From assembly GCA_016929295.1 (NCBI GenBank), contig JAFGJB010000243.1, positions 1 to 52,015 on the forward strand: 52,015 nt of DNA. Reading direction: 5' to 3'. The position numbers were made by a program, and so were the translations under genes. Below the pieces are notes generated by a model. That model was not told where the DNA came from, made no database searches, and saw nothing but the letters and a program-made list of their open reading frames with translations. Below, in pieces: positions 23,674 through 48,136 of this stretch (position 1 is the first letter of the stretch; every line of letters begins with the position of its first letter). This DNA is from Candidatus Zhuqueibacterota bacterium (GTDB taxonomy: Bacteria > Zhuqueibacterota > Zhuqueibacteria > Residuimicrobiales > Krinioviventaceae).

Positions 23674-24504
23674 CTAGTCAAGCACGATCATTTTCCTGTC
23701 ACTCGTCTGGACATTGCCTCTGTGATCTCGAAATTTTAGCCGGCATAAATAGAGACCGCTGCCTAGTTTGTCTCCCGTTTCATCAGTCGCATCCCACACG
23801 ACAACGTGGGCGCCGCCGCTTTTATATTCGCTCAAGAGAGAGTTCACAACTTGGCCGCTCAAATTATAAATGGCGATTGTCACATCGCCTTCTTCAACCA
23901 GTTGAAAGCGAATGACAGTGGTGGAATTGCATGGATTGGGATAGTTCTGTAGCAAAATAGAGCTGGCGGGTGGAGCTTGTCCGTGCCCGACAGCGGTTGC
24001 GTCATCGCTGATGACGAATGAGTGAACCTGTGCACACCATTGGCTCGCGCCGGCACTGTTCGTTGCTTTCACTTTCCAGTAATAGAACCTATCCGGCGCT
24101 AAATCGCAAACTTGCACTGTCGTCGTTTTGCCACGCGTCATCAAGATGGTTGGATTTTCGAATCCGGCGTTTTTATCAACAAATATCTCATAGTGAATGG
24201 AATGTGGGGAGTGTATTTCTGCCGCGGTCGCCGATTCCCACATCAGCATCGGACACGTTGTGTAGACGATCTGCCCATCGATCGGATAGGTAAGAGAAAA
24301 ATTCTGCAACGAAATGAGCTCCGCCTCGCGGCAGGACAGCTCGGCGTCTCCCAGGAGAGCGCCATGATGGCCGTTGCCGGACAAGTCCTCGACGCCGAGC
24401 CAATGAATATCGTTTTTGCAGAACTCATAATAGTCATCGAAATTCCAATAAGCAAGCAAGCCGGCTCGAATCCTTTCATCATCGACGTCCAGAGGGCTTG
24501 TCAT
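23674..24504 (-). CDS. C-terminal part of a frameshifted LamG-domain protein, with FlgD-like sorting domain
   Basis: A 276-residue frame that begins in the middle of a LamG domain: its opening (SPLDVDDERIRAGLLAYWNFDD) is the standard last strand of LamG, continuing without loss from the upstream frame. A fibronectin-III-like segment (about 75-165, with YYWKVKATNSAG) and a FlgD-like sorting domain (about 190-276, LLQNYPNPCNSTTVIRF) follow. It has no signal peptide of its own. The frame starts at ATG 24504 inside an ATGA overlap with the upstream stop. I read the two frames as one gene with a single-base deletion, or a coupled or slipping pair. Confidence 0.75.
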   Translation of the reverse strand: MTSPLDVDDERIRAGLLAYWNFDDYYEFCKNDIHWLGVEDLSGNGHHGALLGDAELSCREAELISLQNFSLTYPIDGQIVYTTCPMLMWESATAAEIHSPHSIHYEIFVDKNAGFENPTILMTRGKTTTVQVCDLAPDRFYYWKVKATNSAGASQWCAQVHSFVISDDATAVGHGQAPPASSILLQNYPNPCNSTTVIRFQLVEEGDVTIAIYNLSGQVVNSLLSEYKSGGAHVVVWDATDETGDKLGSGLYLCRLKFRDHRGNVQTSDRKMIVLD

Positions 24505-25157: not shown

Positions 25158-26714
25158 ATGAATCAAATGTCAAATCAGAATTCCTACACCAGCACCATTG
25201 TGACCATGGCGCGCGGCGCCGGCATCGTTTTTTTCGGCATCTTTATCAGCCGGGTCCTCGGTTATATTTTGCGCGTCGTCCTCAAACATTTTCTCGGCCT
25301 CGAGATGTTTGGGCTGCTGTGGTCAAGCTTCAATGTCATTGAAATGGTCACCTTTTTCTGCCTGCTGGGCATCCCGGCGGCCCTGTCGCGCTACATCGCC
25401 TTTTACAAAGCTCGCAACAATCCGCGCCGGGTGGGCGGCTTTATGTTTATGAGCTTTTTGTACCTGCTGCCGATCATCGGCATCGTCACGGTCGTTTTAG
25501 GCTGGCAGACCGACTATATCGCCACGACGCTGTTTGGAAAACCTGACATCAAGCCGTTTTTGAAAATTCTGAATTTCGGCATCCTGCCGCTGGCGCTGAT
25601 GTATTTTTTCGGCAGTATCTTTCGCGGCTTCAAATTGATGCCGCAGATGGTCTTTACGCAACAGCTCAGTCGAAATATTTTCATGTTTACCTGTCTGGGC
25701 GTCTTTATGCTGCTGGGAATCGGCAGAGAATCTGCTGTCTGGGCCATGCTTCTGGGCCTGGTTCTGACAGCGCTGGCAGCTATCCTGCTCTTCTTCCGCC
25801 ATGTTGAAAAAAAGTATTTCCGCAATATTGACCTGGCCGGCGTGTTTGGCGAGCTCTTCTCCTACTCCTGGCCGCTGGTCTTCACCACGCTGTTCTGGAA
25901 TATGAGCGGCAGAATCGATGTGTTTTTTCTGACCATCTACGAAAACGAGAGCAATGTCGGCGTCTACAATGCCATCCTGCCTTTGGCGCAATTCGTGCCG
26001 GTGATCATGCAGTCGTTCACCAGCATCTTGATGCCGATATTCGCCGGAATTTTCGCTGACTATGAAGAGAACGCGCTCTACACCATGCAGCGCGCCGCAT
26101 CAAAATGGATCATTGCATTGACTGTCCCTTTATTTCTGCTGCTGGTCGTTTTTTCTGATCATATTCTTCTGACATTACTGGGCCGGGACACGCTCATCGG
26201 CACGATGCCGCTGCGCATCGCCCTGGCCGGCTATTTCATCAATGGCGCTTTTGGCGTATTCAGCATCATTCTGAGTGCGGCCGGCAAGACAAAACTGACG
26301 CTCCTCGACACATCCGTTTATATAGCGGCAAACATTTTGCTCGCTATTCTCCTCATCCCGCGATATGGACTCGTTGGTGCGGCGATGGCTGGCGCTTTGA
26401 GCATGTTGATCATGAACATGCTGGCTATCTGGCAAAATTACAGGCTATATCATCTGAAACCGGTGACCGGGCAAATCATGCGGCTTGTTGTGATCGGCTC
26501 TATTGCGGCGGGCGTGAGCCTTTTAATTAAAATCGCCATCCCCTCGCATTTGGAGCTGGTGTCCATCGTTGCCGGGGGGTGTATTTTCATATCGCTCTAT
26601 GTCCTCGGTTTGAAGAAAATCCGCATTTTTGATGAGCATGATATAGCGATCATCGCTGCGGTGGAGAAGAGAATAGGCAGAAAGTTGACTCTGTTGCGAC
26701 GGATGATCGATTAA
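25158..26714 (+). CDS. Wzx-like polysaccharide flippase (MOP superfamily)
   Basis: Integral membrane protein of 518 residues with about fourteen hydrophobic segments. The N-terminal TMARGAGIVFFGIFISRVLGYILRV and GLLWSSFNVIEMV are typical of polysaccharide-transport/MATE-like flippases. Such proteins turn lipid-linked oligosaccharide repeat units across the inner membrane. It is the only rightward gene of the glycan locus and diverges from the LamG gene across 75 bases. No polymerase (Wzy) is obvious; the YfhO-like protein at 36457-38931 is a different family. The ribosome site is weak (AGAGAAC) before ATG 25158; an ATG at 25167 is an alternative. Confidence 0.88.
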   Translation: MNQMSNQNSYTSTIVTMARGAGIVFFGIFISRVLGYILRVVLKHFLGLEMFGLLWSSFNVIEMVTFFCLLGIPAALSRYIAFYKARNNPRRVGGFMFMSFLYLLPIIGIVTVVLGWQTDYIATTLFGKPDIKPFLKILNFGILPLALMYFFGSIFRGFKLMPQMVFTQQLSRNIFMFTCLGVFMLLGIGRESAVWAMLLGLVLTALAAILLFFRHVEKKYFRNIDLAGVFGELFSYSWPLVFTTLFWNMSGRIDVFFLTIYENESNVGVYNAILPLAQFVPVIMQSFTSILMPIFAGIFADYEENALYTMQRAASKWIIALTVPLFLLLVVFSDHILLTLLGRDTLIGTMPLRIALAGYFINGAFGVFSIILSAAGKTKLTLLDTSVYIAANILLAILLIPRYGLVGAAMAGALSMLIMNMLAIWQNYRLYHLKPVTGQIMRLVVIGSIAAGVSLLIKIAIPSHLELVSIVAGGCIFISLYVLGLKKIRIFDEHDIAIIAAVEKRIGRKLTLLRRMID

Positions 26715-26741: not shown

Positions 26742-27560
26742 TTACAATTTGAAATGTTTGAGCCCACATGCAAACCGGCGCATGCCGAAGGCGCGATAGT
26801 GTTTAAAATACTTGGCAAAGCTGCCGATATCCGCCCGAATCATTTTGGAAACGGCAAGATATTCTGCGAGATTGAATTGAACATAATCATTAAAGATGCC
26901 CTCGCGCCACGATCTTTCTTCCCCAATATGAAAGGTCAGGTGCAAGTTTTCGAAAATTTTTATCTTATGGGCATAGCTGATGAGATTCGTTATCAGGGTC
27001 AGACCGATCCGGTTGGTTCCGATGACGACCCTGGCGAGCTTGAACCTGGGGTACAAATCCTTTTTGAAAATAAAACAATCATACCCCGGGTGCTTTTTTC
27101 CAAGATCTTGATACATCTTTGGCAGCTCCTGCGCACTTGAATATGCCGCCGAGATCGTTCGCCGGTTGATCACCAGGGCATCAAAGCCGTGATCGAGCAA
27201 GTGATTCACTTCAATATAGAAATGCGGTTGCAGGGCAATGTCGACGTTGGTGTAGATTAAGAAATCGGCATCACTGTTTTCATATAGCCTGTCCAATATA
27301 TCTTTGATGAGGGGCAACTTTTTGGCTTTTTTAAAACTGCCGAAATCAAGAATGGATCGTTCCAGATCAGGGGTTCGGGTGAAAAAAGGCGGGATGAGGG
27401 GGATATCTTCCTTGAATTGGGCAGTGAGCAATTGTATATCAACTCCAGCTGCTTTCTCTCTGGCCGCTTTCATCGAGGCAAAAGTGATGGGTTGGGCGAT
27501 GTAAAGATCGGAAGAAGGTGGTACAATGACCGGATTGATTATATGGGCGATTCTTCTCAT
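26742..27560 (-). CDS. Protein of unknown function, possibly GT-A-like
   Basis: A 272-residue soluble protein that I cannot assign to a named family. The N-terminal third looks like a nucleotide-sugar-type alpha/beta fold, and DFLIYTNVDIALQPHFY (about 97-115) resembles the metal-binding acidic motif and following strand of GT-A glycosyltransferases. DALVINRRTI and KHPGYDCFIFKKDL would suit an acceptor region. It has no signal peptide or membrane segment. It is the last gene of the glycan locus, 18 bases after an FkbM methyltransferase, so a role in glycan assembly is likely by context only. Confidence 0.55.
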   Translation of the reverse strand: MRRIAHIINPVIVPPSSDLYIAQPITFASMKAAREKAAGVDIQLLTAQFKEDIPLIPPFFTRTPDLERSILDFGSFKKAKKLPLIKDILDRLYENSDADFLIYTNVDIALQPHFYIEVNHLLDHGFDALVINRRTISAAYSSAQELPKMYQDLGKKHPGYDCFIFKKDLYPRFKLARVVIGTNRIGLTLITNLISYAHKIKIFENLHLTFHIGEERSWREGIFNDYVQFNLAEYLAVSKMIRADIGSFAKYFKHYRAFGMRRFACGLKHFKL

Positions 27561-27578: not shown

Positions 27579-28511
27579 TCAGTTCTTTATGTAAGGATTT
27601 AGCCTGGACTTTTTGGATTGATGAACGAAGAAAAAATCTTCTTTGGCATTCGAATAGCCGCTCAAAGAATCGACTTTTATCAAGCCGCCGGGTTTTGCGA
27701 CATAATATAGATAGTTGTTCTCCCAATAAAAATCATCCAGCTCTTTTTCTATTTTGCCCGGCAAAACTTCCGATATGATGATGGGTTTGTCATGAGCTAT
27801 GAGTTCTCTGCCGCCGTCGAGGATGAGGTGTTCCGTTCCCTCGGTATCCAATTTTAAAAGATCAACTGACCGGATGGCATGTTCCGTGACAAAGTTGTCC
27901 AGGGTCTGGGTGCTGACCTTGATGGTCTCGGCATAGCCATCTTTTGCCCGCGCCAGATTGCTCGTGCCGCTGATGTGATGTTTGAGGTACATGGCTTTGG
28001 GCATTTTGGTGGCAAAAAATTCCGCCTCCCCCGCTTTTTCCGCCAGGGCAAGACGGCAGGGTTTGATGTTGTCTAGCTTGTTCAATTGAATGTTTTTTTG
28101 CAGAAAAAGAAAAGCGCTTGGCAAAGGTTCAAAAGCATAGACGGTGATGTGAGGAACAAGTCGGGCTGCCATGAGCGAGTAGTAACCGATGTTTGCGCCG
28201 ATATCCATAAAACAGTTCATATCTTGAATCAGTTTCATGAAAACGCTCACGGTGGGGAATTCATAATCCTCAATTCCCCCCCAAAAAACTTTTTTGGTGA
28301 GATAATTGGTTTGATTGGTGGCCATGCGGATAAATTGATCATCCACAAGCTTGATCCTGACGGTGCCCGAAACAGGAATCATGCAACTGGAGGGCAACCA
28401 GGACCGAAAAGGCTTTAAAATGCTCCTCAGCAAATAATTTATAACAGGGGTGTAAATAATCCTTCTTATGAATGGCATCATGAACTTGTCCAGAGTTGAT
28501 GTTTTCCGCAA
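27579..28511 (-). CDS. FkbM-family methyltransferase
   Basis: SAM-dependent O-methyltransferase; relatives methylate sugar hydroxyls in polysaccharides. Motif I MDIGANIGYYS, then VYAFEPLPSAF and the family signature LLKLDTEGTEHLIL are all intact, and IISEVLPG follows. The length is 310 residues from TTG 28511, seven bases after the preceding gene, or 300 from ATG 28481; neither has a strong ribosome site. The first 60 residues are outside the conserved domain. It is the second of two tandem FkbM genes that share little sequence outside the motifs, so they likely act at different positions. Confidence 0.9.
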   Translation of the reverse strand: MRKTSTLDKFMMPFIRRIIYTPVINYLLRSILKPFRSWLPSSCMIPVSGTVRIKLVDDQFIRMATNQTNYLTKKVFWGGIEDYEFPTVSVFMKLIQDMNCFMDIGANIGYYSLMAARLVPHITVYAFEPLPSAFLFLQKNIQLNKLDNIKPCRLALAEKAGEAEFFATKMPKAMYLKHHISGTSNLARAKDGYAETIKVSTQTLDNFVTEHAIRSVDLLKLDTEGTEHLILDGGRELIAHDKPIIISEVLPGKIEKELDDFYWENNYLYYVAKPGGLIKVDSLSGYSNAKEDFFFVHQSKKSRLNPYIKN

Positions 28512-28518
28512 TTGTCAG

Positions 28519-29247
28519 CTATAAAGTCCTGGTAAAAAAAACATCGGCATTCAGGAACGTGCCATCTTTCATGCTGCGGGCAATATTCTCGACGCCGGCG
28601 ATATGAAACCCTCTTTTTCGTAAAAAATCAATAATGTCATCAAATAGAGGTTGTTCCTCGTACAGCTTGTTAAAACAGACCTCCGAATAAATACATCGAA
28701 TGTACTTTAACAACTCCTCCGCGCCCTTTAGCACTTCAATTTCATAGCCCTGCACGTCCAGTTTCAACAGGATATTCGGCGTTAATTCTTCGATCTTGAT
28801 CAAATTGTCCAGTTTTTCCAAAGCCACGCTAATTTTAGAATAGTTTTTGGTGTAGGGATGAGCGTCTATATGCAAATTGGATATTCTGAGGAAGGAGGAT
28901 GCCCCGATATGCTCGTGCAGATGAAACTCTGATTGTCCGACTGTATTACCCAGGGCAACATTGAACGCCCTGAAATTTTTGTCAGATGCAAATTTTTTTG
29001 TCAGAATTTTATACGAACTGGGGATAGGCTCAAAAGAAAATATTTTTGCTCCCCGAAATAATTCCCGGGCCTTGGCAGCAAAACCACCGTCGGAAGCGCC
29101 CACATCAATGACAGAGTTGATATGTTGATCGGTCAACCAGTTATAGCGCACCTTTTCCAGTTGCGCTTCCCTGCTGTCAAAAGAAACAATGGTCAGACCT
29201 TTTTCGTTGAGATATCTAACGACCTTTGTTTTTAAAAATTGTTTCAA
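28519..29247 (-). CDS. FkbM-family methyltransferase
   Basis: SAM-dependent O-methyltransferase of 242 residues. It has VIDVGASDGGFAAKARE (SAM motif I), FSFEPIPSSYKIL, and the FkbM signature LLKLDVQGYEIEVLKGAEELL, with IYSEVCF after it. The start appears to be TTG at 29247, with CGGAAAAG just upstream; no in-frame ATG occurs before motif I. It begins a short leftward group (two FkbM genes and an unknown), separated from the sulfotransferase gene by a 313-base gap that contains a heptamer palindrome. Confidence 0.9.
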   Translation of the reverse strand: MKQFLKTKVVRYLNEKGLTIVSFDSREAQLEKVRYNWLTDQHINSVIDVGASDGGFAAKARELFRGAKIFSFEPIPSSYKILTKKFASDKNFRAFNVALGNTVGQSEFHLHEHIGASSFLRISNLHIDAHPYTKNYSKISVALEKLDNLIKIEELTPNILLKLDVQGYEIEVLKGAEELLKYIRCIYSEVCFNKLYEEQPLFDDIIDFLRKRGFHIAGVENIARSMKDGTFLNADVFFTRTL

Positions 29248-29461
29248 GTGCTTTTCCGAATTTTTACCTGCAGCGTCTTGTCAAATTGATAGGGTTTGCA
29301 ACATTCCCTGAAGAGCTTGCCATTAATGGACGATAATATAACCACCAAAGAAGCGAAAATCAAGTAAAACACTTAAAGCGAGAGTTATCCAGGATCATGA
29401 TTTTGGCGGCATTTTTGAGATTGAGTTTAAAATCAGAAGAATTGATTGCATGCGAAAAAAT

Positions 29462-29549
29462 AAAGTGAGACGTGAAACGTCAAACGTGAGACGAAATCTA
29501 GGCCGGATCTGACGTTTGACGTTTGACGTTTCACGTTTCACGTCTCACA
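29462..29549. repeat. Palindromic heptamer repeat, GTGAAAC family (copy 2)
   Basis: The left arm (29462-29492) consists of the units GTGAGAC, GTGAAAC, GTCAAAC, GTGAGAC. The right arm (29511-29549) is the inverted series with an extra unit, around a short centre. It belongs to the same family as 23560-23650. It lies in the 313-base gap 29248-29560; the rest of the gap is AT-rich and shows no gene. Confidence 0.78.
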
Positions 29550-29560
29550 TCCTGGACATT

Positions 29561-30448
29561 TCATACATAGCCATAGTCTTCCATCAGCGGTGCGATCCGA
29601 TGTAATGACTGCTTATCCTCGTCCGGCCATTCTCGATACGGAGGATAGTCGCCCTTTTTCTGCACATTTTCCGGCCGCAAGTTTTTTGCGATCGCATTCA
29701 GAGACGGTGCGGGCGTGCCCAGGAACGAAAAGATATCTCGGGTGATGCCGGCATCGGCAAAAAGATCCTCCGCCTTGACGAACAGAAAATCATCCGGGGG
29801 GACAGCGCTTTTCACCTCCTCGATGAAGAGGTTCGTCTCATTCCACAGCCAGCCGATCTTTTCGATCAACGTCCATGCGGCCCACAAATTTCTGGCCTGG
29901 CTCGTCGGCACGATCCGGCCGATATCATGCTCGTGCTTTTCAGAGTACCAGCCGCGCCGGATGCCGCTGCGCACAAAATCGCCGGGATGCCGGACGAGGT
30001 GAATGAATCTGGCGTGCGGAAAAACATCGCGAATGATGGGCGAAAAAAAGGTGATGCGGTTGTTGGTCTCGACGAAAATCTGATCATGTCGCAGCACTTC
30101 GAGCAGCAGCTCTTCGCGAGCGCTCTTGAACGTCTCGCGGAATACCTCGGGGGCGATTTTCACCTTCTCAAAAGCCAGTTTTGACGCCCGGATCAACTCG
30201 GGACGCGGTTGGTGGGCGACGGCGACGTGCGGCGACAAGGACAATAATTTGCTCAGTAAGAGCGTGCCGCTGCGGCCGGTCGACAGGACAAAGCATGGGC
30301 GGACGTTTTGCCACTTTTGCGCTTCGCAGTGCGCCAATGAAACCTGCCGGGCCGGCAAAAGTCGCTGTGCGGCGCCGTCCGCTTTGCGAGTCAGATCAGT
30401 GAAAGAATCAGCAACCTTTAAGAGCAATCGATAAATGAATAATTTCAT
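29561..30448 (-). CDS. Polysaccharide sulfotransferase (PAPS-dependent)
   Basis: Transfers sulfate from PAPS, here most likely to a surface glycan. The 5'-phosphosulfate loop STGRSGT (residues 56-62) and the 3'-phosphate site FIHLVRHPGDFVRSG (about 148-162) are both intact, with a conserved histidine region PHVAVAHQPRPE between them. The length of 295 residues is normal. It is predicted cytoplasmic; the N-terminal helix is amphipathic rather than a signal. The ATG at 30448 has GGTGGA upstream and overlaps the deacetylase stop by 4 bases. It follows deacetylase and C5-epimerase genes, matching heparan-type modification. N- and O-sulfation cannot be told apart. Confidence 0.9.
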   Translation of the reverse strand: MKLFIYRLLLKVADSFTDLTRKADGAAQRLLPARQVSLAHCEAQKWQNVRPCFVLSTGRSGTLLLSKLLSLSPHVAVAHQPRPELIRASKLAFEKVKIAPEVFRETFKSAREELLLEVLRHDQIFVETNNRITFFSPIIRDVFPHARFIHLVRHPGDFVRSGIRRGWYSEKHEHDIGRIVPTSQARNLWAAWTLIEKIGWLWNETNLFIEEVKSAVPPDDFLFVKAEDLFADAGITRDIFSFLGTPAPSLNAIAKNLRPENVQKKGDYPPYREWPDEDKQSLHRIAPLMEDYGYV

Positions 30449-31914
30449 CGCAATGTCCACCAGTCATATACTTGATTCAGCGAGGCAAGCCAGCCGTCAT
30501 TTTCCTGCACCCAGCCCAAAATTTTGCTGTAAAGCAGCGAATAGCCATAGACGTCAACGGGATGCAATTCCGAGCTGTGCCAGTTTATTGTCAACAAGCT
30601 ATTATTGTCTCTCGTCTCTTCGAGATGTTTTTCAATCACGCGCCACGCCTCGGCAGCCGAGAGAAATTGTTTGCTCTCCAATAAAAGCACCGTATCCATC
30701 AAAATCAGCGGGATTTCCAGCAACGGCACAGGCCTTTCGCCATCGTGCAGCTGAAATGGAAAACCGGTGCCGCATCGGTAGCCGGTGTGGTTGGAAAATC
30801 CCAGGGTGGAATCATATTTTAATTTGGCATCCTGCCACAACTGCAGGGTATCATGGGTGTAACAGAGGTAATGCTGGCGGCCGCCGGGAATGTCCTTGTC
30901 GATAAAAAATTCCAGATCTTCTTTTTCCAGCTCCAAAAAGCCACTCTCGGTAGCGGAAGGAATGGTGCCATGCAAACCTATGTCGCAGCCGCGTTTTTGC
31001 ACGATTTCCATTCCTTGGCGAATCAATTGCGAATTCATTTTGTATTTCGGATCAAGCTCGTGTCGGTGGCGGGAGATGAAGAAAAATGTCGAAGCCGCGT
31101 CGAAACGTTGTTCCAGTCGACTGATAAAGTTGAAATTGCCAAGCCAGTTCTCCGGACAGGCCAATGACTGCGCCAGGCGAAATGTGCGTATGAGCGCATT
31201 TGCATAGGGCGAGTGATCGGCGCGTAAAACTCTTTTCATCTTTGTGATGGTCCACGTCGGGATGCGGTCGACATCATGTGATAGCGCCAGCGCGAATGAC
31301 TTGTTGTCAGGCCAAAGCGGACTGGTCTGCAAGTGAGGAGCCAGTTGCAGTAACAGCTTTTTCAGCATCTTCGCATAGCGGTCCACCACGGGACTCTCAT
31401 AGACAACCTCGCCCACAGGACTGAAAGGGCGCTGGAAGCGATGAAATACATCGCGATCTGTGGCGCGCCGTTCATTTTCAAGCGAGAGAAAATAAAAACA
31501 GGTGGAGATGATATCGACGGCGCACTGCACTTTTTTTTCACTCCAGCTGATCATGACATCAAGAGTTTTTTCGTCGGCATATAGCGGATTTTGCTGTTGC
31601 GGAATATCGCTGGAAAAGAGATAGCTGATTTTTGCCGGGAGATCCGGCTGAGCCGTCACAATCGTGCGCACGTCGTGCGGGGTGAGGCCGGCGGCTCCGG
31701 CATAATTGACCTGCGCACAGTAAATGATCGGCAGGTCGACATCAATGGTCGGCACCGATCGACCATAGAACAACAATGCATCAACAAGGGGGAGCCGCTC
31801 GGACAGGTCGTTGATTTCGATCATTTTGACGCCCATCATTTTGCCCAGTTGCTGCAAAACATATCGCGCCTGCTTGGCGAATGTCATTTTCTCTTGTAAG
31901 AAAAATCCGATCAT
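30445..31914 (-). CDS. Polysaccharide deacetylase-family protein with extended N-terminal domain
   Basis: Putative NodB-type deacetylase removing acetyl groups from N-acetyl-hexosamine residues. The N-terminal 180 residues resemble the DUF7033-type domain of glycan-cluster deacetylases. The catalytic half starts with ALSHDVDRI, where His213, Asp214 and Asp216 match the T(F/S)DDG-like metal/acid motif in its HDVD variant. IGLHGT (His315), GGRQHYLCY and the late INWHSSELHP provide the remaining conserved sites. Its 489 residues are long for the family. The start overlaps the epimerase stop, and its stop overlaps the sulfotransferase start, each by 4 bases (ATGA). Confidence 0.87.
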   Translation of the reverse strand: MIGFFLQEKMTFAKQARYVLQQLGKMMGVKMIEINDLSERLPLVDALLFYGRSVPTIDVDLPIIYCAQVNYAGAAGLTPHDVRTIVTAQPDLPAKISYLFSSDIPQQQNPLYADEKTLDVMISWSEKKVQCAVDIISTCFYFLSLENERRATDRDVFHRFQRPFSPVGEVVYESPVVDRYAKMLKKLLLQLAPHLQTSPLWPDNKSFALALSHDVDRIPTWTITKMKRVLRADHSPYANALIRTFRLAQSLACPENWLGNFNFISRLEQRFDAASTFFFISRHRHELDPKYKMNSQLIRQGMEIVQKRGCDIGLHGTIPSATESGFLELEKEDLEFFIDKDIPGGRQHYLCYTHDTLQLWQDAKLKYDSTLGFSNHTGYRCGTGFPFQLHDGERPVPLLEIPLILMDTVLLLESKQFLSAAEAWRVIEKHLEETRDNNSLLTINWHSSELHPVDVYGYSLLYSKILGWVQENDGWLASLNQVYDWWTLR

Positions 31915-32870
31915 AACCGATGCATCTTTTTTAGTGCTTTATATTTAAGGGCATACATTTTTAATATATTCTTCGCTTGATCGTATCGCTCAAAGTGGTC
32001 TGCCCACGATTTGAAATCCTGGTCGCCGGTCAGGCGGGCAAACATTTTCAATTGGGTGATCACCAGTCGCAAATAGCCGATCGTCGCCGGATCCGGATCG
32101 GGATAAAAATCCTCGCGACAATAATTATAGCGCATCCAATAGCCGAGATCATAGCGCGGCAGCCAGCGACGCACGGCGGTCAGACCGGCGTCAAACAGCG
32201 CTTTCGCCCTGGCGGAGTGCAAAGCGCGCACGGCATCGTAGAGACCGCAGAGCGAAAAGAGGCAGCCGTCGAGCACCATGGTCGGAAAGACGGTCGGATA
32301 CTCCTCGTAAAAGGGACCGAGGTCTGTGAACGTCGTGACGCCGCCATCGCGCGCCGAAATGTCAAAAATGGCCAGCGCCCCTTCGGCAGCGCGGCGATAC
32401 TCTTCCTCACCGGTCATCTGCCAGGCGCGCAACAAGATCGATATTCCGCGGCTCTGCGAAAAAGCCGATGGCCAGGGCCGGATGATGCCGTATTCCGGTT
32501 TCGGCACATCGGTGAGCCAGTAGACGCCTTTGTCATCCTCACGGCGATGGCCGTAAAACCAGTCGGCGATGTCCAAAAATCGTTTCGCATCGGATTCAGC
32601 CTCTGTTCTCAACCATGCATGAAAGATCGCCAAACCGTACTGGCCGATGGAAATCGGATAATAGATGAGCCGGTCATCATCGACGTCGATGTAGCTGGGG
32701 ATGACCGGAATGCCTTTGTCATCGAAATGATAATTCTGACTGTGCCCCGCCAGCAATTCCTTTTCATCGATGAGAAAATAGTACTCGCCGAGCTCTTCGC
32801 CCTGCAGATCGTCCGTCAGTTGATAGATATCTTTGTCTCGCGACAGATCTTTGAGTAGCTTGCGGGACAT
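31911..32870 (-). CDS. D-glucuronyl C5-epimerase-family protein
   Basis: Predicted to invert C5 of glucuronate in a polymer, giving iduronate. The protein (about 319 residues from ATG 32870) matches the C-terminal domain of heparan C5-epimerases: YYPISIGQYGLAIF, RPWPSAFSQSRGISILLRAW, then FYEEYPTVFPTMVLDGCLFSLCGLYD, which closely parallels the animal enzyme's YEEYP and GLYD region. The extra N-terminal 36 residues up to 32978 are not conserved, so the internal ATG is used, although no clear ribosome site precedes it. There is no signal peptide, unlike animal Golgi enzymes. It is the first gene of the coupled epimerase-deacetylase-sulfotransferase trio. Confidence 0.88.
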   Translation of the reverse strand: MSRKLLKDLSRDKDIYQLTDDLQGEELGEYYFLIDEKELLAGHSQNYHFDDKGIPVIPSYIDVDDDRLIYYPISIGQYGLAIFHAWLRTEAESDAKRFLDIADWFYGHRREDDKGVYWLTDVPKPEYGIIRPWPSAFSQSRGISILLRAWQMTGEEEYRRAAEGALAIFDISARDGGVTTFTDLGPFYEEYPTVFPTMVLDGCLFSLCGLYDAVRALHSARAKALFDAGLTAVRRWLPRYDLGYWMRYNYCREDFYPDPDPATIGYLRLVITQLKMFARLTGDQDFKSWADHFERYDQAKNILKMYALKYKALKKMHRL

Positions 32871-32985
32871 GAAAAAAAATTTGTTGATTTTAGTCACAGA
32901 AACTCGATGCTGAGTGCGTAGTAATATTGGCAAGAAAGGTAAGAAAAATTGATCTGATTTTAAACACGAAATATGCATATGATTT

Positions 32986-33024
32986 ACCGTGAAATATTAA
33001 AATCGATATTTAATATTTCACGGT
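32986..33024. repeat. Perfect 16-pair AT-rich palindrome after the GT4 gene
   Basis: Bases 32986-33001 and 33009-33024 are perfectly complementary (outer ACCGTG/CACGGT, AT-rich inside) around a 7-base loop. It starts at the stop codon of the minus-strand glycosyltransferase gene and lies before the C5-epimerase gene. There is no T-run, so it is either an mRNA 3'-end hairpin or a further dispersed repeat. Confidence 0.75.
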
Positions 33025-34304
33025 TAATCCAATGAATGGAAAATATCGGCGAGCGCTTTTGTCAGTCGCGCACGCGTAAATGGCTTTGTATCGTTGTTTT
33101 GCAAAAATATTTCCTGTTCTTGCAATTGAATTAAAAATGAGCGCATTTGCTCGTGATCAGCGTCATTTATCATCCTGCCAATACGCGTCTGACGAAGGAT
33201 TTTCGCTGCATCCCCATCTTCCGGGCCGATGCCGAGGATCGGCCGACCGGCGCCCATGTAATCGAACAGCTTGCTGGTGAGAATGCCCTTGGCATACGAA
33301 GTGTCGGGCACGACAAAAAACAGCAATGCGGCGCGTTTCATGACGGCGACCAACTGGTCATGGGGGATATAGTCGAAAAAAACGGCGTGATGTTCCAGTC
33401 CATGTTCTGCGAGTGAGCGATGCACCTCTTCGTGTATGGCGCCGTAAAAATCGAGCTGCAGCTTGCCTTTCAGGAAGGGGCCATCGACTATTTTTTTCAG
33501 CGTCCGCCACAGTCCTGCGGGATTCTGATTGCTCGCCAGATGGCCGGCGTGCACAATATGGAATTTGCCATCATCCGGCAAAGGCGCTATCCCATGAAAA
33601 TCATCTTCATCAAAACCATTGGGAATAACGTAGTAAACATTCAATGCTTTGGACTCGAGCAATTTGGCCAGAGTCGAGCTCACCGTGATGATGCCATTGG
33701 CCGATCGCAGCACCGATTTTTCTAGCTGTCGATCGCGCGTGACAGCCATTCCGCTGCGTTTGAGACGGTGATAATAAAAGATGTCGGTCCAGGGATCGCG
33801 GAAATCGGCGATCCAGGGCAGAGCGGATTTTTTCGCCAGCGCTCTGGCGATGAGGTGGGCGCTCATCGGCGGCGCAGTGCTAAAGATGAGGTCGATTTTT
33901 TCCTCTTTGATGAGTCGCCGTCCCTCATTGACGGCAAAGGGCTTCCAGCCGATGCGCGCATCGGGGATGAACAGATTAGCGCGGATGAACGATGCGAGCT
34001 TTTTGCCGGGGCCGCGGCTGTTTTCCGTCAATACAAAGGTGGTGATTTTATCAGTTGATTTTTTGCCGGTCAAGGCGCGATAGAGGGCGTAGGGTTCAAG
34101 CGACGACGTTTTTCGGACGACGAGCGACGCGCTGATATCTCTGAACAAGGTCTCGTCGATGGCCGGATATTCGCCATTCTCGACCGTCAGGATGATCGGG
34201 CGCCAGCCGAATGCCGGCAGATATTTGGCGAATTTCAGGGCGCGCTGCACTCCTGGTCCGCCCGCCGGCGGCCAATAGTAGGTGATGATGAGGACTGATT
34301 TCAT
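33024..34304 (-). CDS. Glycosyltransferase family 4 protein
   Basis: GT-B glycosyltransferase that builds the surface glycan from a nucleotide sugar. The N-terminal part has VLIITYYWPPAGGPGVQRALKFAKYL, a common opening of GT4 capsule enzymes, and WIADFRDPWTD. The C-terminal Rossmann part has VIPNGFDEDDF, IVHAGHLASNQNP, and the donor-site region near DYMGAGRPILGIGPEDGDA. It has about 427 residues. The ATG at 34304 gives this opening; a frame to 34334 adds ten poorly conserved residues. The sugar and linkage cannot be predicted. Confidence 0.9.
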   Translation of the reverse strand: MKSVLIITYYWPPAGGPGVQRALKFAKYLPAFGWRPIILTVENGEYPAIDETLFRDISASLVVRKTSSLEPYALYRALTGKKSTDKITTFVLTENSRGPGKKLASFIRANLFIPDARIGWKPFAVNEGRRLIKEEKIDLIFSTAPPMSAHLIARALAKKSALPWIADFRDPWTDIFYYHRLKRSGMAVTRDRQLEKSVLRSANGIITVSSTLAKLLESKALNVYYVIPNGFDEDDFHGIAPLPDDGKFHIVHAGHLASNQNPAGLWRTLKKIVDGPFLKGKLQLDFYGAIHEEVHRSLAEHGLEHHAVFFDYIPHDQLVAVMKRAALLFFVVPDTSYAKGILTSKLFDYMGAGRPILGIGPEDGDAAKILRQTRIGRMINDADHEQMRSFLIQLQEQEIFLQNNDTKPFTRARLTKALADIFHSLD

Positions 34305-34345
34305 CTTTTTCTCATTTGTGCACATCGGCCGCAACCGAAAACATC

Positions 34346-34454: not shown

Positions 34455-36395
34455 TCAGCCATAGAACGATTCAATAGGCGAATTTTTATCCGCTATGGTG
34501 GCCGATTCGATGAACATGGCTTTCCAGATATAAAAACCGGTCAACAACCAGATGTAATTATAATGCCAGCGCAGACGCGGATGTGGCCTGGCGTCCAGAA
34601 TGGAGCGGATATAATCATATTGAAAGATGCCATCACCTTGAATGCGCTTTTTGGTCAGAATTCGCTCAGCCGTCACTTTCAAATCTTTTTGAAACTGCAG
34701 ATAGGGATTGAAGGTGAATCCCCACTTTTTCTTTTTCAATATCGGCGTCGGCAGATAAGGCGCCAGGGCTTTGCGCAGCAAACCTTTGGTTTCGCCGCCG
34801 ACCATTTTCATTTTTGCCGGAATGGAGAGTCCAAGTTTGACGAGATCGAGATCAAGGAATGGCACGCGCTCCTCCAGAGAATGACTCATGGACATGCGGT
34901 CCTCGACGAGCAGATAGTCGTTCACCATCTTGCTGCCGAACTCGACGACATAGACCCGCTCGAGCGCGGTCATGTTGTCATACCTGACGAACAGGTCGTC
35001 GAACTCGTTCGCCACCGGTATTATCCGGTTCTGCAAAAAGTCGGGGTGGTAAATGCGTTTGAGATGGGCGCGATCGTAATCCCAGACATTCCGCAAAATG
35101 AGATAAAACTTTTTTACATTTCCGGTCGCCAGAGCCATCTGCAGGCCGCGACGGTACTCGTCGAATCTCATTGGCGACAGTCGAGTCTGTAAATGATACA
35201 GGAGCCCGCTCAACCTGGATGTGAGCGCTGATTCCACTTTCGCCGGAAAGAGCCAATGCAGTCTGTCGAACGGCAAGATAAATTTGTGAATGTCATAACC
35301 GGAGAACAGCTCGTCGCCGCCGAGTCCGCCAAGTGCCACCTTGACGTGCTGCGAGACAAATTGCGACATCGCATAGCCCTGCAAGAGATTGATTTTGGGT
35401 TCCTCTGCATGCCAAATCACCTCCGGCATGCGCCGCATCGGCTGCATATCCAGGCGCAAGACGCGATGGTTCGTCTCATAGCGGGCGGCGGTCAGCTGCG
35501 CGTCGTCGATCTCGTCGGTTGGTTCGTTGAATCCGAGGGTGAAGGTGTTGATGTCCGCGACGCCGGCCTGACGCATCATGGCGACGATCGCGCCGGAGTC
35601 CAGGCCGCCGGAGAGATAGACTCCGATCGGCACATCCGCAATGAGCTGCCGCCTGACGGCCTGACTGAGAGAGAAGCGGATTTCCTCCAGCCACGCCGCC
35701 TCGGACTTTTCATGATCGATCTGCGCGGCGAGCTGGTAATAGCGCTCGACCTTTTGTATGACGCCGTCCTCAATGATGGCATAATGGGCCGGCGGCAGCC
35801 GGTGAATATTTTTGATGAGCGTCTCGTTTGTCTGGTTGTAGCGGAGGTTCATTTGATGGTGCAAGGCCTGCGGATTCAGTTGCCGTTCCACTGCCGGATG
35901 CAATAAAATGGCCTTGTATTCGGAGGCGAACAGAAACAGACCATCCTTCTGATAGTAATGCAACGGCTTGATGCCAAAGTGGTCCCGCGCTAAAATAAGT
36001 CGGCACCCCTGCCGTTCATCGAGGATGGCCAATGCAAAGATGCCGTTGAGCCGGGCAAAAGAATCGGGGCCATCGAGCTCGAACAATTTCAAAATGACTT
36101 CGGTGTCGGAACGGGTGAAAAAAGAGACGCCGCGTTTGACGAGTTCGTCACGCAGCTCTCGATAGTTATAAATCTCGCCGTTGTAGACAATGGCAAGGCT
36201 TTTATCACCATTGAAAATCGGCTGGTCACCGGTGGCGAGATCGATGATGCGCAAGCGACGATGGCCGAGACAGACATTGCCGGATTGATAGACGGCGGCC
36301 TTGTCCGGTCCGCGATGGGCGAGCATGTCGCACATGCGGCGGACGAGCTGCCGGTTATCCCCTTTTTTTTCGACTATACCGCAGATGCCGCACAT
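34455..36395 (-). CDS. asnB: Glutamine-hydrolysing asparagine synthase-type amidotransferase
   Basis: ATP-dependent amidotransferase, 646 residues. The N-terminal class II glutaminase starts with the catalytic Cys2 (MCGICGIVEKKGDN). The synthase domain has the PP-loop YLSGGLDSGAIVAMM and later VEDRMSMSHSLEERVPFLD. It may make asparagine, but AsnB-like genes in O-antigen and capsule clusters are thought to amidate uronic acids of the polymer, which would fit this uronate-related locus. The start ATG lies directly against an AT-rich repeat and has no recognisable ribosome site. Confidence 0.9.
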   Translation of the reverse strand: MCGICGIVEKKGDNRQLVRRMCDMLAHRGPDKAAVYQSGNVCLGHRRLRIIDLATGDQPIFNGDKSLAIVYNGEIYNYRELRDELVKRGVSFFTRSDTEVILKLFELDGPDSFARLNGIFALAILDERQGCRLILARDHFGIKPLHYYQKDGLFLFASEYKAILLHPAVERQLNPQALHHQMNLRYNQTNETLIKNIHRLPPAHYAIIEDGVIQKVERYYQLAAQIDHEKSEAAWLEEIRFSLSQAVRRQLIADVPIGVYLSGGLDSGAIVAMMRQAGVADINTFTLGFNEPTDEIDDAQLTAARYETNHRVLRLDMQPMRRMPEVIWHAEEPKINLLQGYAMSQFVSQHVKVALGGLGGDELFSGYDIHKFILPFDRLHWLFPAKVESALTSRLSGLLYHLQTRLSPMRFDEYRRGLQMALATGNVKKFYLILRNVWDYDRAHLKRIYHPDFLQNRIIPVANEFDDLFVRYDNMTALERVYVVEFGSKMVNDYLLVEDRMSMSHSLEERVPFLDLDLVKLGLSIPAKMKMVGGETKGLLRKALAPYLPTPILKKKKWGFTFNPYLQFQKDLKVTAERILTKKRIQGDGIFQYDYIRSILDARPHPRLRWHYNYIWLLTGFYIWKAMFIESATIADKNSPIESFYG

Positions 36396-36456: not shown

Positions 36457-38931
36457 TCACGATCTCTTTCCAAACTTGCGGATAATGGGAAGCAGGCCGA
36501 TGAGCAGCGCTGCGTAGACGATTGTAATGGAGCCGGCCATCATGGCCACGCTGATCTTGTAGGTGGCTGGTTCGAGTTTGAAATGCACGGTATTCGAGCC
36601 GGCCGGCACGAGCACGCCGCGCAGAATGTGGTTCACTTTGTAGATTTCAACCTCTCTGTCATCGATGAATGCCTGCCAGCCGGCGGGATAATAGATCTCG
36701 CTCAGCACGAGCAGCGTCTGTTCATCGGTCGAGATGTTGACATCGATATAGTTTGGCTCATAGCGGCTGATGACCGCTGACCAGTTAGCCGGTGCAGCGA
36801 TCGATGCCGGCAGCGCTGCTTCGACGATGGCGACGGAATCCGGACGAAATGACGCCTGATTGAGCCGGGCAAGACGAGCCGGTCGCTCCGGGATCACCTC
36901 GGTTTGGCCGACGCAAAAGGCGCGCGGCAGGGCGGCGCTGTTTTTGTAGACGATTATTTTCTGCGATTGATCGACCGTGACCGGCTGGAGGTTCGCATGC
37001 GTCATATTGCCCTGCGCCAGCAGGTATCTGGCATTCAGCATATTGACAATGTTCCAGTTGATCGGCACTTCAGTCGCATTGTTAAAGCCAGGATCTGTGC
37101 CGTTCCGCAAACACGATTCCAGAATATCCTGATAGATGCGCAGCTTGGCGGGATGGTATCCCTCGATGGACTGATGAAAGTAAGACCAGTGCGCCTGGCC
37201 GCTCAAATCACCGAGCGGGTAGATGCGGTGTGGCTCGGCATCGTCCTGCAACAGCTTGTCAATTGGCGTCTCGTTGAAATAGCTGTCCATTTGCGCCCTT
37301 GGAATGAGATCCCGCAGGTAGCGCCTGTCGATGGGCAGCACGTCGATGAGAAGAAGGACGATGGCCATGGCGATGAAGGTCGGTTTCTTCAGCCAGCCTT
37401 GCAGATGCGCGAAAGAGAGTCCGAAAGCTGCGGCGACGAGCGCCAGCATGCGGATGGCGTCTCCTTTTAAAAGATCGAAACGCACCGTTTTCAACATCGC
37501 CAGCACATCGGCGCTGTAGCTTTGAATTTCATTCGGTCGCGCGAGCGGCAAGGCGTGGCGCAGCAGCAACGGTCCTGCGCCGAGCAGCACAAAGATCCCA
37601 AAGATAACGGCCAGAATCTGACGCGCCTTTTTCTGCTTCAACCGCTGCGAAAGCTCATCGATGCCAAAGCCGGCGAGCGCGGCGACGCAGAACATCACCA
37701 GGACGACGATCATCACCGGCACACGAAATTTATTAAAGAACGGCACCAGGTTGAAAAAGAGTTTATATAATGCCGGAAAGTGCTGGCCAAAGGCCATGAG
37801 CGTGGAAAAAATCAACAGCGCAACAAGCACCTTGACTTCACTGTGACGCCAGCCCAAAATCATTCCGAAAAAAGCAAAAAAGACGGCCACGGCTCCCAGA
37901 TAGTCGGTTGTCGAGGTGAAAGGCATATGTCCCCAGTAACCCGGGATCGTCCTCCCCTTCAGCTGCGGCACAGCGTCGCCGGTGTAAAGCTGGCTCGAGT
38001 GGCCGCCCCAAAAGCGCGGAATGATAAAATTGTACATTTCTCCCGGATGCAGCGACCATTGCGTCGCGTAATCGAAATCGAGTCCGGTCGAGCCTTCCTC
38101 GCCCGTGCCGCCGCGGATCGAATATTTGGAATATTCGCGCACTTGCAGAGAATTGAATGCGGACATGGCGATGCCGAGGACGAGGCCGATGACGACAACG
38201 GCCGTAGCCAGAGCTGCGCTGCTGACCTGTTTGTCGCGGATCATCTCGACAATTCGGACAATACCAAAGAAAGCCAGGGCTAAACCCAAATAAAAGACGA
38301 TCTGGTAGTGACCGGCGCGCACGGCCAGGCCGAAGGCGATGGCAAAAAGTGAAAAGTTGAGCAGGTTGGCTTTGCGCAGGAGCCGCAAGAACAAAAAGAG
38401 CACGATGGGAATGCACATGATGGTCTGCACTTTGCTGTTGTGGCCAGCCTCGATCTTGCCGATCAGGTCCGGCCACCAGATGAATGCCAGCGCGGCGAAC
38501 ATGGCGGCGCCGATGTGCAGACGCCAAAAGCGCAGCAGCAGCAACATACCGCAGGCGCCAAGCAGAAAATATATTGGCTGCCATTGCAGGATTTTCGTCA
38601 GGTTATCGATGAGCAGCCGGACGGGCTGATCAAACGGCGGCCGCAGCGTTATCAGATGCGTCGGCATGCCGGAAAAGACATTGTTGGCCCACAACGGCGT
38701 ATAGTGCAGCTCCTTTTTGGCCTGTAGAATGGATTGCGCATTGCCCTTCCAGGCGATGATATCTGTGCTCGGCGGCACCTTTTTCTCAAAGACGATCGGT
38801 GCAAAGTAGATCAGCACCAGCAGAAAAATCAATCCTGCCGCGATGAGAAATTGCGTCGCCGGCGAGAGGGCGCGGCGGGGCGCCCGCGTCACTTTTTTTG
38901 TCTGCTTTTTTTTATATTCTTTTTTGGCCAT
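36457..38931 (-). CDS. YfhO-like multi-pass membrane protein
   Basis: Large integral membrane protein of 824 residues. A basic N-terminus (KKEYKKKQTKKVTRAPRR) is followed by twelve or so membrane segments and a C-terminal periplasmic domain (about 540-780). The YfhO family (GT-C-like fold) is linked to glycosylation of lipoteichoic acid or other envelope glycans in Firmicutes. WKGNAQSILQAKKELHYTPLW and FSGMPTHLITL are typical of the large FCB-type members. By context it may add a side-chain sugar on the outer face of the membrane. It has an AAGG ribosome site at ATG 38931. Confidence 0.85.
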   Translation of the reverse strand: MAKKEYKKKQTKKVTRAPRRALSPATQFLIAAGLIFLLVLIYFAPIVFEKKVPPSTDIIAWKGNAQSILQAKKELHYTPLWANNVFSGMPTHLITLRPPFDQPVRLLIDNLTKILQWQPIYFLLGACGMLLLLRFWRLHIGAAMFAALAFIWWPDLIGKIEAGHNSKVQTIMCIPIVLFLFLRLLRKANLLNFSLFAIAFGLAVRAGHYQIVFYLGLALAFFGIVRIVEMIRDKQVSSAALATAVVVIGLVLGIAMSAFNSLQVREYSKYSIRGGTGEEGSTGLDFDYATQWSLHPGEMYNFIIPRFWGGHSSQLYTGDAVPQLKGRTIPGYWGHMPFTSTTDYLGAVAVFFAFFGMILGWRHSEVKVLVALLIFSTLMAFGQHFPALYKLFFNLVPFFNKFRVPVMIVVLVMFCVAALAGFGIDELSQRLKQKKARQILAVIFGIFVLLGAGPLLLRHALPLARPNEIQSYSADVLAMLKTVRFDLLKGDAIRMLALVAAAFGLSFAHLQGWLKKPTFIAMAIVLLLIDVLPIDRRYLRDLIPRAQMDSYFNETPIDKLLQDDAEPHRIYPLGDLSGQAHWSYFHQSIEGYHPAKLRIYQDILESCLRNGTDPGFNNATEVPINWNIVNMLNARYLLAQGNMTHANLQPVTVDQSQKIIVYKNSAALPRAFCVGQTEVIPERPARLARLNQASFRPDSVAIVEAALPASIAAPANWSAVISRYEPNYIDVNISTDEQTLLVLSEIYYPAGWQAFIDDREVEIYKVNHILRGVLVPAGSNTVHFKLEPATYKISVAMMAGSITIVYAALLIGLLPIIRKFGKRS

Positions 38932-38941
38932 TGTTACGCCT

Positions 38942-39997
38942 TCATCTATAGTATTTTTTCACAAACCCGGTGAACTCGCCCTGTCGCAAGAGCACACGAC
39001 GATAAAATGCCAGCGAAAATCCCAGCCCATAGCCGGCGACTTGCAGCGGCATGACAATGGGGACGAGCAGGCCGGTCCGCAAATTTTTCCATTTTATCGC
39101 CGCATCGACGGCTGACAGAAAAACGGCGACAAGGACGATCAGGGCAAAATATTTCCACACCGCGAATACCGCCGGAAAAATGAGCGCTGCAAGTGTGAAA
39201 ATAAGAATGAACCAAAAACCGATCGCCGGAGCAAAATGCAGCGGCTCGAGCATGGATGAGTCTATTTTATAAAGATTGATTCTCGCGACGCCCCAATTGA
39301 AAACCTGGCGGAAAAATGTCCGCAACGATGTTCGCCGTTTATGATAGACGACGGCATCGTGAATGTACACCACCTTTTCGCCGCTTTTGAGAATGCGATT
39401 GCTGAGCTCGATATCCTGGCCGTGGCGCAATGCGCCGAAACCGCCGATTTTTTCATAAAGTTTTCGATGCATGCCCATGTTGAAACTGCGAGGGTAAAAT
39501 TTCGCCAGCCTCTTTCTCCTGCTCCCGCGCAGGCCGCCGGTGGTCAAGAACGAGGTCATCGAATAGTTGATCGCCAGCAGCAACGGCGGGAAATCGGCTC
39601 GCGCATCGTCGCGGCCGCCAAAGGCGCGCATGGTCGGATCTTCATCAAAGGTCTTTTTGATGAGTTTCAACCAATCGGGCGGCGCCAGACAGTCGGAATC
39701 AATGAAAATGAACAAGTCCCCTCTGGCCGCCAGCATGCCGAGATTGCGCGCCGCGCCCGGACCCTGGTGATCCTGGCGGACAAAATTGATATGGAGCCTG
39801 GAATTTTTGCTGAAATTGTACAACCAACTATCCGTCCCGTCCGACGAACCGTCATCGACAATGATGACCTCAAATTTGTCGACACCCAGCTCCTGCTCTT
39901 CGAGGGAGGTTAGCAAAGCCTCAATTTCATCTTTACGATTATAGGAGGGTACGATGACGGAGAGAAAATTGTCTGATGTATCCGCCACTACTCCCAC
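38942..39997 (-). CDS. Glycosyltransferase family 2 with C-terminal membrane segments
   Basis: GT-A inverting glycosyltransferase, 351 residues. SVIVPSYNRKDEIEALL opens the fold. VIIVDDGSSDGT and the metal-binding DSD (FIFIDSDCLAPPDWL) are intact, and GMHRKLYEKIGGF with RHGQDIELSNRIL marks the acceptor/catalytic region. Three hydrophobic segments in the last 120 residues anchor it to the inner membrane. The start is GTG at 39997, overlapping the stop of the upstream GT2 gene by 10 bases. Its membrane anchoring suggests a lipid-linked or exported acceptor. Confidence 0.9.
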   Translation of the reverse strand: MGVVADTSDNFLSVIVPSYNRKDEIEALLTSLEEQELGVDKFEVIIVDDGSSDGTDSWLYNFSKNSRLHINFVRQDHQGPGAARNLGMLAARGDLFIFIDSDCLAPPDWLKLIKKTFDEDPTMRAFGGRDDARADFPPLLLAINYSMTSFLTTGGLRGSRRKRLAKFYPRSFNMGMHRKLYEKIGGFGALRHGQDIELSNRILKSGEKVVYIHDAVVYHKRRTSLRTFFRQVFNWGVARINLYKIDSSMLEPLHFAPAIGFWFILIFTLAALIFPAVFAVWKYFALIVLVAVFLSAVDAAIKWKNLRTGLLVPIVMPLQVAGYGLGFSLAFYRRVLLRQGEFTGFVKKYYR

Positions 39998-43741: not shown

Positions 43742-43965
43742 CGCTTCTCTATTCTTCAAATGAACAAAAAATATATCACTATTTCGCTTCTTTCACAAGC
43801 AAAAACTGTGCTGTCGTGAGAGTTAAAACCAATAATTTCTGTAATTTGTTCCATAAGCAGTGGAAAGAATAATTTCAATTTCTGAATAAATTACTTATAT
43901 TGCGTCATCACAGTTTTTCGAATATCTTGCAGACAAAAGCAGTGGCCATCACTAAACTTACGCAT

Positions 43966-47939: not shown

Positions 47940-47950
47940 AAAAAATCCTC

Positions 47951-48136
47951 CTATGGCTTTTTTCTGGCCGTGTTGATCTTGAAAGGAACGTACAAAGGAC
48001 AGAAGTTCAGGAGAGCGGTGATGAGCAACACCAATCCGACCAGACCCCACCAGCTTTTAAAGACAACTCCAGCGATGATGACGACTATGCCCAGGACAAG
48101 TCGCACCATTTTGTCAGTTTTGCCCACATTTTTCAT
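47951..48136 (-). CDS. DUF2892 small membrane protein
   Basis: A 61-residue inner-membrane protein of the DUF2892/YgaP-tail type. KNVGKTDKMVRLVLGIVVII and the second helix ending NFCPLYVPFKI are characteristic. In other bacteria this domain often accompanies rhodanese or sulfur and redox proteins; here it sits in a cytochrome-like cluster. The ATG at 48136 has GGAGG upstream; an ATG at 48151 is part of that ribosome site. The start is 15 bases after the DUF5777 stop. Confidence 0.88.
   Translation of the reverse strand: MKNVGKTDKMVRLVLGIVVIIAGVVFKSWWGLVGLVLLITALLNFCPLYVPFKINTARKKP

Follow-up and report, generated by a model that had tools for sequence, protein, structure and literature searches.

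The chemistry considered here is known in parts from described systems: a GLCE-type enzyme of Bermanella marisrubri (Raedts 2013, as cited in PMC13308652 and PMC12834895), N-sulfated polymers of Pontiella, and a sulfated iduronic acid (IdoA) glycan of Halobacterium. For GLCE, the glucuronyl C5-epimerase of animals, the catalytic residues have been named as E499, Y500, N510, Y560 and Y578, and only one bacterial C5-epimerase has been characterised so far (PMC13308652). No prokaryotic glycosaminoglycan (GAG) sulfotransferase was known as of 2020 (PMC7356697). VimE is the presumed UDP-2,3-diacetamido-2,3-dideoxy-glucuronate deacetylase of Porphyromonas; in the published model its step, which is called putative, frees an amine on the uronate of the Wbp pathway, after which VimA attaches an amino acid and the carboxyl group is amidated by WbpS, to give the linking sugar of the type IX secretion system (T9SS) (PMC7468200). 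The WbpS of P. gingivalis has also been linked to the XrtA amidotransferase family (PMC7468200). Here we describe three adjacent genes on a contig of Candidatus Zhuqueibacterota bacterium (JAFGJB010000243.1, assembly GCA_016929295.1; the whole stretch of 52,015 nucleotides is called the window), which encode a predicted GLCE-type epimerase, a VimE-like deacetylase and a sulfotransferase dependent on 3'-phosphoadenosine-5'-phosphosulfate (PAPS). From their sequences and arrangement, the three apparently form one conserved, translationally coupled cassette within a glycan cluster:

31911 to 32978, minus strand: GLCE-type glucuronyl C5-epimerase homologue (open reading frame (ORF) of 355 aa; PF06662, match to 6hzz, structure model, catalytic residues)
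30445 to 31914, minus strand: VimE-like CE4-type N-deacetylase with DUF7033 (NF053580, PF23019, conserved residues)
29561 to 30460, minus strand: PAPS-dependent sulfotransferase of lineage A (PF13469; coupled start ATG 30448, in-frame GTG 30460)

An earlier note on this DNA had described three neighbouring minus-strand genes joined by two 4-base ATGA overlaps. The three genes are all there: the epimerase (31911-32978) comes first and is followed by the deacetylase (30445-31914) and then the sulfotransferase (29561-30448, or from the in-frame GTG at 30460). Both overlaps are real: at 31914-31911 the TGA of the epimerase overlaps the ATG of the deacetylase, and at 30448-30445 the TGA of the deacetylase overlaps the ATG of the sulfotransferase. 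A search for the trio, as the note had proposed, finds the same order in the window's genome (G000; other G numbers denote the genomes of relatives, with G001 being the sister species) and in five further genomes (G001, G004, G006, G007 and G072). Three of these (G001, G004, G007) belong to the window's family and G072 to another family of the phylum, so that the order is seen in both families. The G006 contig breaks off within the epimerase, whose last residues (YTVKYKALKKMNRL, stop) are readable before the deacetylase. Because the order recurs in five other genomes and two families, the adjacency is not a matter of chance, and it is conserved far beyond it. Close homologues in named records carry the label KSB1 or Calditrichota, apart from one record each of a deltaproteobacterium and of CSSED10-310. 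The note knew of no bacterial locus that couples all three steps, and our literature search, which left most subscription journals outside it, likewise found no described locus that combines them.

We also considered the overlaps as a chance effect of ORFs, and rejected this, since the ATGA junction between epimerase and deacetylase is kept in six of seven loci.

Its modelled fold and its catalytic residues mark the epimerase as a true GLCE-type family member, with one substitution. Its sequence matches PF06662 (C5-epim_C; E 1.3e-35, 123.1 bits against a cut-off of 23.3) and human GLCE (6hzz; E 1.8e-17), and the YEEYP motif, which had been recognised from the letters alone as that of the animal enzyme, occupies residues 224-228 and indeed aligns with the YEEYP of human GLCE. 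The AlphaFold model (mean pLDDT, the predicted local distance difference test, 74.7; N-terminal part of low confidence) compares with 6hzz at Z 30.4 and 2.8 Å over 277 residues, the next unrelated fold having Z 14.9, and Foldseek agrees with the GLCE fold. The comparison of active-site tyrosines that had been proposed finds equivalents of Y500, Y560 and Y578; in all, four of the five named residues are present by alignment, with E226, Y227, Y284 and Y302 corresponding to human E499, Y500, Y560 and Y578, and these four are invariant in 12 cluster-type epimerase homologues. The fifth differs, human N510 being D237 in the window. This position is D rather than N by 7 to 5 among the cluster-type homologues, and N in 47 of 51 others; since it varies within the bacterial family, we do not treat D237 as decisive.

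The epimerase is about 150 residues shorter than the solved GLCE chains (355 aa vs ∼510 residues), so much of the N-terminal beta region, which in GLCE includes the beta-hairpin/beta-sandwich dimer domain and in which the model is of low confidence, is probably missing. Relatives conserve residues upstream of the ATG at 32870, at which the earlier note had begun the gene, and the ORF extends to 32978. Thus the gene stands and its extent was probably drawn too short, the true start probably lying further upstream, e.g., at GTG 32897 or nearby. Proteins above the PF06662 cut-off occur in 49 of 60 relatives, although most are of a different subfamily and lie in other clusters; the window-type epimerase is rarer than PF06662 proteins as a whole. 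In one relative (G046, L048 10485-11465; also L104), a window-type epimerase is followed by a third, unrelated type of sulfotransferase, with no deacetylase.

The deacetylase is, as judged from its sequence, a VimE homologue and not a VimE equivalog. The only curated NCBIfam model that it matches is VimE (NF053580; E 3.3e-29, profile positions 79-430 of 431), at 101.8 bits against an equivalog cut-off of 440, and the deacetylases of G006 and G007 match VimE equally well. The VimE family is linked to a step on UDP-diacetamido-glucuronate that takes place in the cytosol. Among Pfam models, DUF7033 (PF23019) is matched above its cut-off (E 3e-12), and it alone: the generic polysaccharide-deacetylase model has no match. 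The HDVD motif, on which the protein had been called a NodB-type deacetylase, lies at residues 213-216, and all of 18 homologues keep H213, D214 and D216, together with H315, H348 of an RxH motif, R380 and H446. The motif is therefore borne out, but the canonical NodB assignment is not, because the H(S/T)xxH metal motif is absent and in its place there is a single conserved His in LHGS/LHGT, together with the RxH. This pattern of residues (HDxD, H315, RxH348, R380, H446) suggests that the active site is CE4-like but has no canonical HxxxH pair. The profile match to the polysaccharide deacetylase 3rxz is weak (E 0.009), and the structure model, which was built from a three-sequence alignment, has a confidence too low for use (pLDDT 36.7). 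Searches of Pfam, NCBIfam and solved structures gave no match between the deacetylase and any model or structure of NDST, the N-deacetylase/N-sulfotransferase of animals; a literature search on the structure of NDST found no paper.

The third protein had been described as a PAPS sulfotransferase with both PAPS motifs, and this holds: the 5'-phosphosulfate-binding and 3'-phosphate-binding loops (5'PSB and 3'PB) are present as FVLSTGRSGTLLL and RFIHLVRHPGDFVRSGI, and PF13469 (Sulfotransfer_3) is matched at E 5.7e-13 with 50.1 bits against a cut-off of 27. Its sequence has no match among solved structures, where NDST or GAG O-sulfotransferases would be expected. A sulfotransferase occurs in the neighbourhood of 12 of the 18 DUF7033 loci of the phylum. 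Two lineages can be told apart among these sulfotransferases, and no match across them exceeds 31 BLAST bits: lineage A (G000, G001, G013, G064, G074) and lineage B (G004, G006, G007, G019, G026, G031, G072). The window's protein scores 531 bits with the lineage A profile (the hidden Markov model (HMM) sulA) and 20 bits with that of lineage B (sulB). That unrelated sulfotransferases have come to lie next to one and the same deacetylase points to a functional coupling of the two activities.

The lineages also differ in a neighbour. A VimA-like GNAT gene is nearby in six of the six complete lineage B loci and in none of the five of lineage A (Fisher p = 0.002, a value that is valid only if the loci are independent, relatedness being uncorrected), and an HMM search of the lineage A loci for a hidden VimA-like gene found none. 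Since the GNAT gene accompanies lineage B and never lineage A, the fate of the amine may differ between them: to judge from gene content, it may be re-acylated in lineage B, and free or N-sulfated in lineage A.

The window's genome also encodes a kinase for adenosine 5'-phosphosulfate (APS), the gene being at 32357-32809 of another contig (G000:C350; PF01583, 240.5 bits). A second, unrelated sulfotransferase of this genome (L096 9333-10445) lies on the APS kinase contig, approximately 8 kb away. In G063, a distant relative (L131 9049-11066), an APS kinase gene directly adjoins a VimE-like deacetylase, and this adjacency suggests that PAPS supply is co-located with the deacetylase pathway. Just past the sulfotransferase gene of the window, at 29440-29560, the DNA holds a short repeat, both tandem and inverted (GTGAGACGTGAAACGTGAAACGTCAAACGTC ... 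CGTTTGACGTTTCACGTCTCAC), which could be a terminator or a repeat element.

The rest of the glycan cluster consists of the following genes, shown here from upstream to downstream together with a flanking T9SS gene (GT, glycosyltransferase; TPR, tetratricopeptide repeat):

41750 to 43759, minus strand: TPR protein, conserved cluster neighbour (TPR models)
40941 to 41750, minus strand: DUF4292 protein, conserved cluster neighbour (PF14125, E 1.6e-16)
39988 to 40944, minus strand: GT2 of the polyprenyl-phosphate glycosyltransferase type (PF00535; ArnC NF007986 E 7.6e-61 and PgfS E 2.4e-46, both below cut-off)
38942 to 39997, minus strand: GT2 glycosyltransferase (PF00535; best NCBIfam model EpsD, below cut-off)
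36457 to 38931, minus strand: YfhO-family membrane protein, probable GT-C (PF09586, E 2.8e-08; strongly hydrophobic)
34455 to 36395, minus strand: AsnB-like amidotransferase of the WbpS/XrtA type (PF00733, PF13537; TIGR03108 423.8 bits, below the cut-off of 816.9)
33024 to 34334, minus strand: GT4 glycosyltransferase (PF13439), in most relatives the next gene upstream of the epimerase
28519 to 29247, minus strand: FkbM-type methyltransferase 1 (PF05050, E 9.2e-23)
27579 to 28511, minus strand: FkbM-type methyltransferase 2 (PF05050, E 2.4e-23)
26742 to 27560, minus strand: protein conserved in the sister species (L082) that has a GT-A-like stretch (DFLIYTNVDIAL) and no Pfam or NCBIfam match; possibly a new glycosyltransferase family
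25158 to 26714, plus strand: Wzx-type flippase (PF01943, E 2.4e-25)
23674 to 24504, minus strand: T9SS sorting-tail protein (TIGR04183 33.5 bits, above the cut-off of 23; PF18962)

The genes upstream of the cassette (TPR, DUF4292, the two GT2, YfhO, AsnB-like and GT4) recur there in relatives, and downstream lie the FkbM methyltransferases and the flippase. A second protein with a T9SS type A sorting tail is encoded at 47280-48050, so that the two flank the glycan cluster. SprA, of the T9SS translocon, is encoded elsewhere in the window's genome and is found in eight of the eight genomes tested, in one of them below the family cut-off; a literature search for T9SS in KSB1 found no paper. As to nucleotide sugars, the only strong 6-dehydrogenase found in the window's genome is of the N-acetylhexosamine (HexNAc) type and lies beside WecB. 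The homologues of the Wbp/Vim set in this genome are therefore VimE and WbpS in the cluster, and the HexNAc dehydrogenase with WecB elsewhere; a VimA-like gene is found only in sister loci, those of lineage B, and not in the window's cluster. A WbpE beside WbpB was sought among the DegT aminotransferases of G000, G004 and G007, and no clear pair was seen. UDP-glucose dehydrogenase (UGDH) was not found in the window's genome (96% complete) or in that of the sister species; UGDH-type enzymes, assigned from sequence motifs, are present in G004, G005, G006 and G007. The latter (L138-L141, in the order G007, G005, G006, G004) are apparently eukaryote-like (GAGYVGGPTMA...GFGGSCFKKD, ∼460 aa).

We consider the most economical reading of these data to be an amino-uronate glycan, with amidation and methylation as further options. 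Put more fully, the trio would be a modification cassette, likely cytoplasmic, for an amino-uronate surface glycan in KSB1/Calditrichota-type bacteria, a proposal that we regard as about evenly balanced between right and wrong. Its substrates, the order of its steps, their location, and N- as against O-sulfation are set out as we infer them. The VimE-like deacetylase would act on an amino-uronate, present as a UDP-sugar or in a lipid-linked intermediate, and strip it of one N-acetyl group; the GLCE-fold epimerase would invert C5 of a uronate in the cytoplasmic lipid-linked glycan before export by the Wzx flippase; and the sulfotransferase would sulfate the product with PAPS. In lineage A, to which the window belongs and whose clusters hold no VimA-like acyltransferase, the sulfate may go to the freed amine (N-sulfation), and in lineage B the amine would probably be re-acylated and sulfate placed on oxygen. 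Amidation of the carboxyl group may fall to the AsnB-like enzyme and methylation to the FkbM enzymes, and the ArnC-like GT2 and the YfhO GT-C would add another sugar once the glycan has been exported. Neither the epimerase nor the sulfotransferase shows a prominent hydrophobic segment for export, and the deacetylase has only one marginal internal window, so the cassette probably does its work in the cytoplasm, while the glycan has yet to be exported.

Several points weigh against this proposal. The epimerase and deacetylase may act on different residues of the glycan. The deacetylase scores so far under the VimE cut-off that its substrate may differ from that of VimE, and WbpB, WbpE and WbpD are not established in the window's genome. 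In addition, the pattern of lineages A and B rests on 11 related loci, and other PF13480 acyltransferases elsewhere in the window's genome could act in trans.

A special case of the amino-uronate proposal, which we consider possible although doubtful, is that the glycan anchors T9SS cargo: a glycolipid resembling A-LPS (anionic lipopolysaccharide), in which a Wbp/Vim-type amino-uronate linking sugar is epimerised and sulfated and the cargo is attached. The VimE-like deacetylase, the WbpS-like amidotransferase and the VimA-like GNAT of relatives fit the Wbp/Vim pathway (PMC7468200), and SprA in this genome and its relatives, the two flanking T9SS-tail genes and the HexNAc-type dehydrogenase with WecB point the same way. 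However, the window's cluster has no VimA, the Wbp B, E and D steps were not located, genomes of this kind commonly hold T9SS cargo genes, whose proximity may be chance, and the same gene set is also found in exosortase exopolysaccharide loci (PMC7468200), and so is not specific to T9SS. It is somewhat less probable, and on balance unlikely, that the three enzymes are modular bystanders, i.e., that one surface-glycan operon houses them although each modifies a residue of its own and no substrate logic unites them. The genes are indeed gained and lost separately within the phylum: in G005 the deacetylase is missing beside the epimerase, in G046 the epimerase is accompanied by the unrelated sulfotransferase, deacetylase and sulfotransferase are paired without the epimerase in G013 and G019, and in G071 the epimerase and deacetylase lack a sulfotransferase and methyltransferases come next. 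Mere cohabitation, though, is hard to square with an order and an ATGA overlap that are conserved across families, and with a deacetylase that has acquired unrelated sulfotransferases as its neighbours.

The earlier note had proposed a heparan-sulfate-like module, in which a polymer of glucuronic acid (GlcA) and N-acetylglucosamine (GlcNAc) undergoes N-deacetylation, N-sulfation and C5 epimerisation, the steps seen in animals. The coupling of a GLCE-family epimerase, with its equivalents of E499, Y500, Y560 and Y578, to a CE4-like deacetylase and a PAPS sulfotransferase stands; UGDH-type enzymes do occur in four relatives, and Pontiella has sulfated GAG-like polymers with mainly N-sulfate (PMC7356697). 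The identity of the pathway does not follow from this, since the deacetylase is VimE-like, the sulfotransferase has no match to NDST or to other solved sulfotransferases, no heparosan synthase was recognised among the annotated genes of the cluster (the extent of that search, as distinct from the whole genome), UGDH was found neither in this genome nor in its sister species, and the epimerase is missing from the deacetylase-sulfotransferase loci G013 and G019. We therefore judge this version very improbable: "bacterial heparan sulfate" is unproven, and GlcNAc and GlcA in the polymer are a supposition. A variant of the amino-uronate proposal, which we also think unlikely although less so, is that the cassette is a cytoplasmic counterpart of NDST plus GLCE, in which a VimE-type deacetylase and a PF13469 sulfotransferase would yield an N-sulfated, C5-epimerised amino-uronate surface glycan, possibly a T9SS cargo anchor, with deacetylation and sulfation having evolved independently of animals.

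Compared with the systems introduced above, the window's epimerase is like animal GLCE (PDB 6HZZ, 4PW2) in its PF06662 domain, its fold, the YEEYP motif and four catalytic positions, and differs in being shorter, in having Asp at the position of N510 and in lacking a signal anchor. These points were read from the animal enzyme, beside which the Bermanella enzyme stands as a related known case. As in animal NDST, deacetylation is genetically coupled to a sulfotransferase, although here in two separate proteins (of the VimE family and the PF13469 type) with no sequence match to NDST. Agl32 with Agl30/Agl31 of Halobacterium salinarum (PMC13308652, PMC11980604) is likewise a prokaryotic case of uronate C5 epimerisation and sulfation, there on a short glycan; unlike the window's epimerase, Agl32 does not have the GLCE catalytic residues and its alignment with the GLCE fold is only partial, and no deacetylase is described. 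The putative cluster for the GAG-like exopolymer of Pontiella (PMC7356697) shares with the window a PF13469 sulfotransferase within a bacterial glycosyltransferase cluster, and the polymer is largely N-sulfated; that paper makes no mention of an epimerase, and mentions deacetylases only for fucoidan breakdown. With the Wbp/Vim pathway of Porphyromonas gingivalis and Tannerella forsythia (PMC7468200), the window shares the VimE-like deacetylase, the WbpS-type amidotransferase, a genomic T9SS and, in sister loci, the VimA-like GNAT; in contrast to that pathway, its cluster has no VimA, Wbp B, D and E were not located, and a C5-epimerase and a sulfotransferase are added. New here are the two unrelated sulfotransferase lineages of the cassette, split by the VimA-like acyltransferase, a split that makes N- versus O-sulfation directly testable. 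The cassette offers concrete enzymes for the surface-glycan biology of uncultured bacteria, and candidate tools for making iduronate-containing sulfated glycans.

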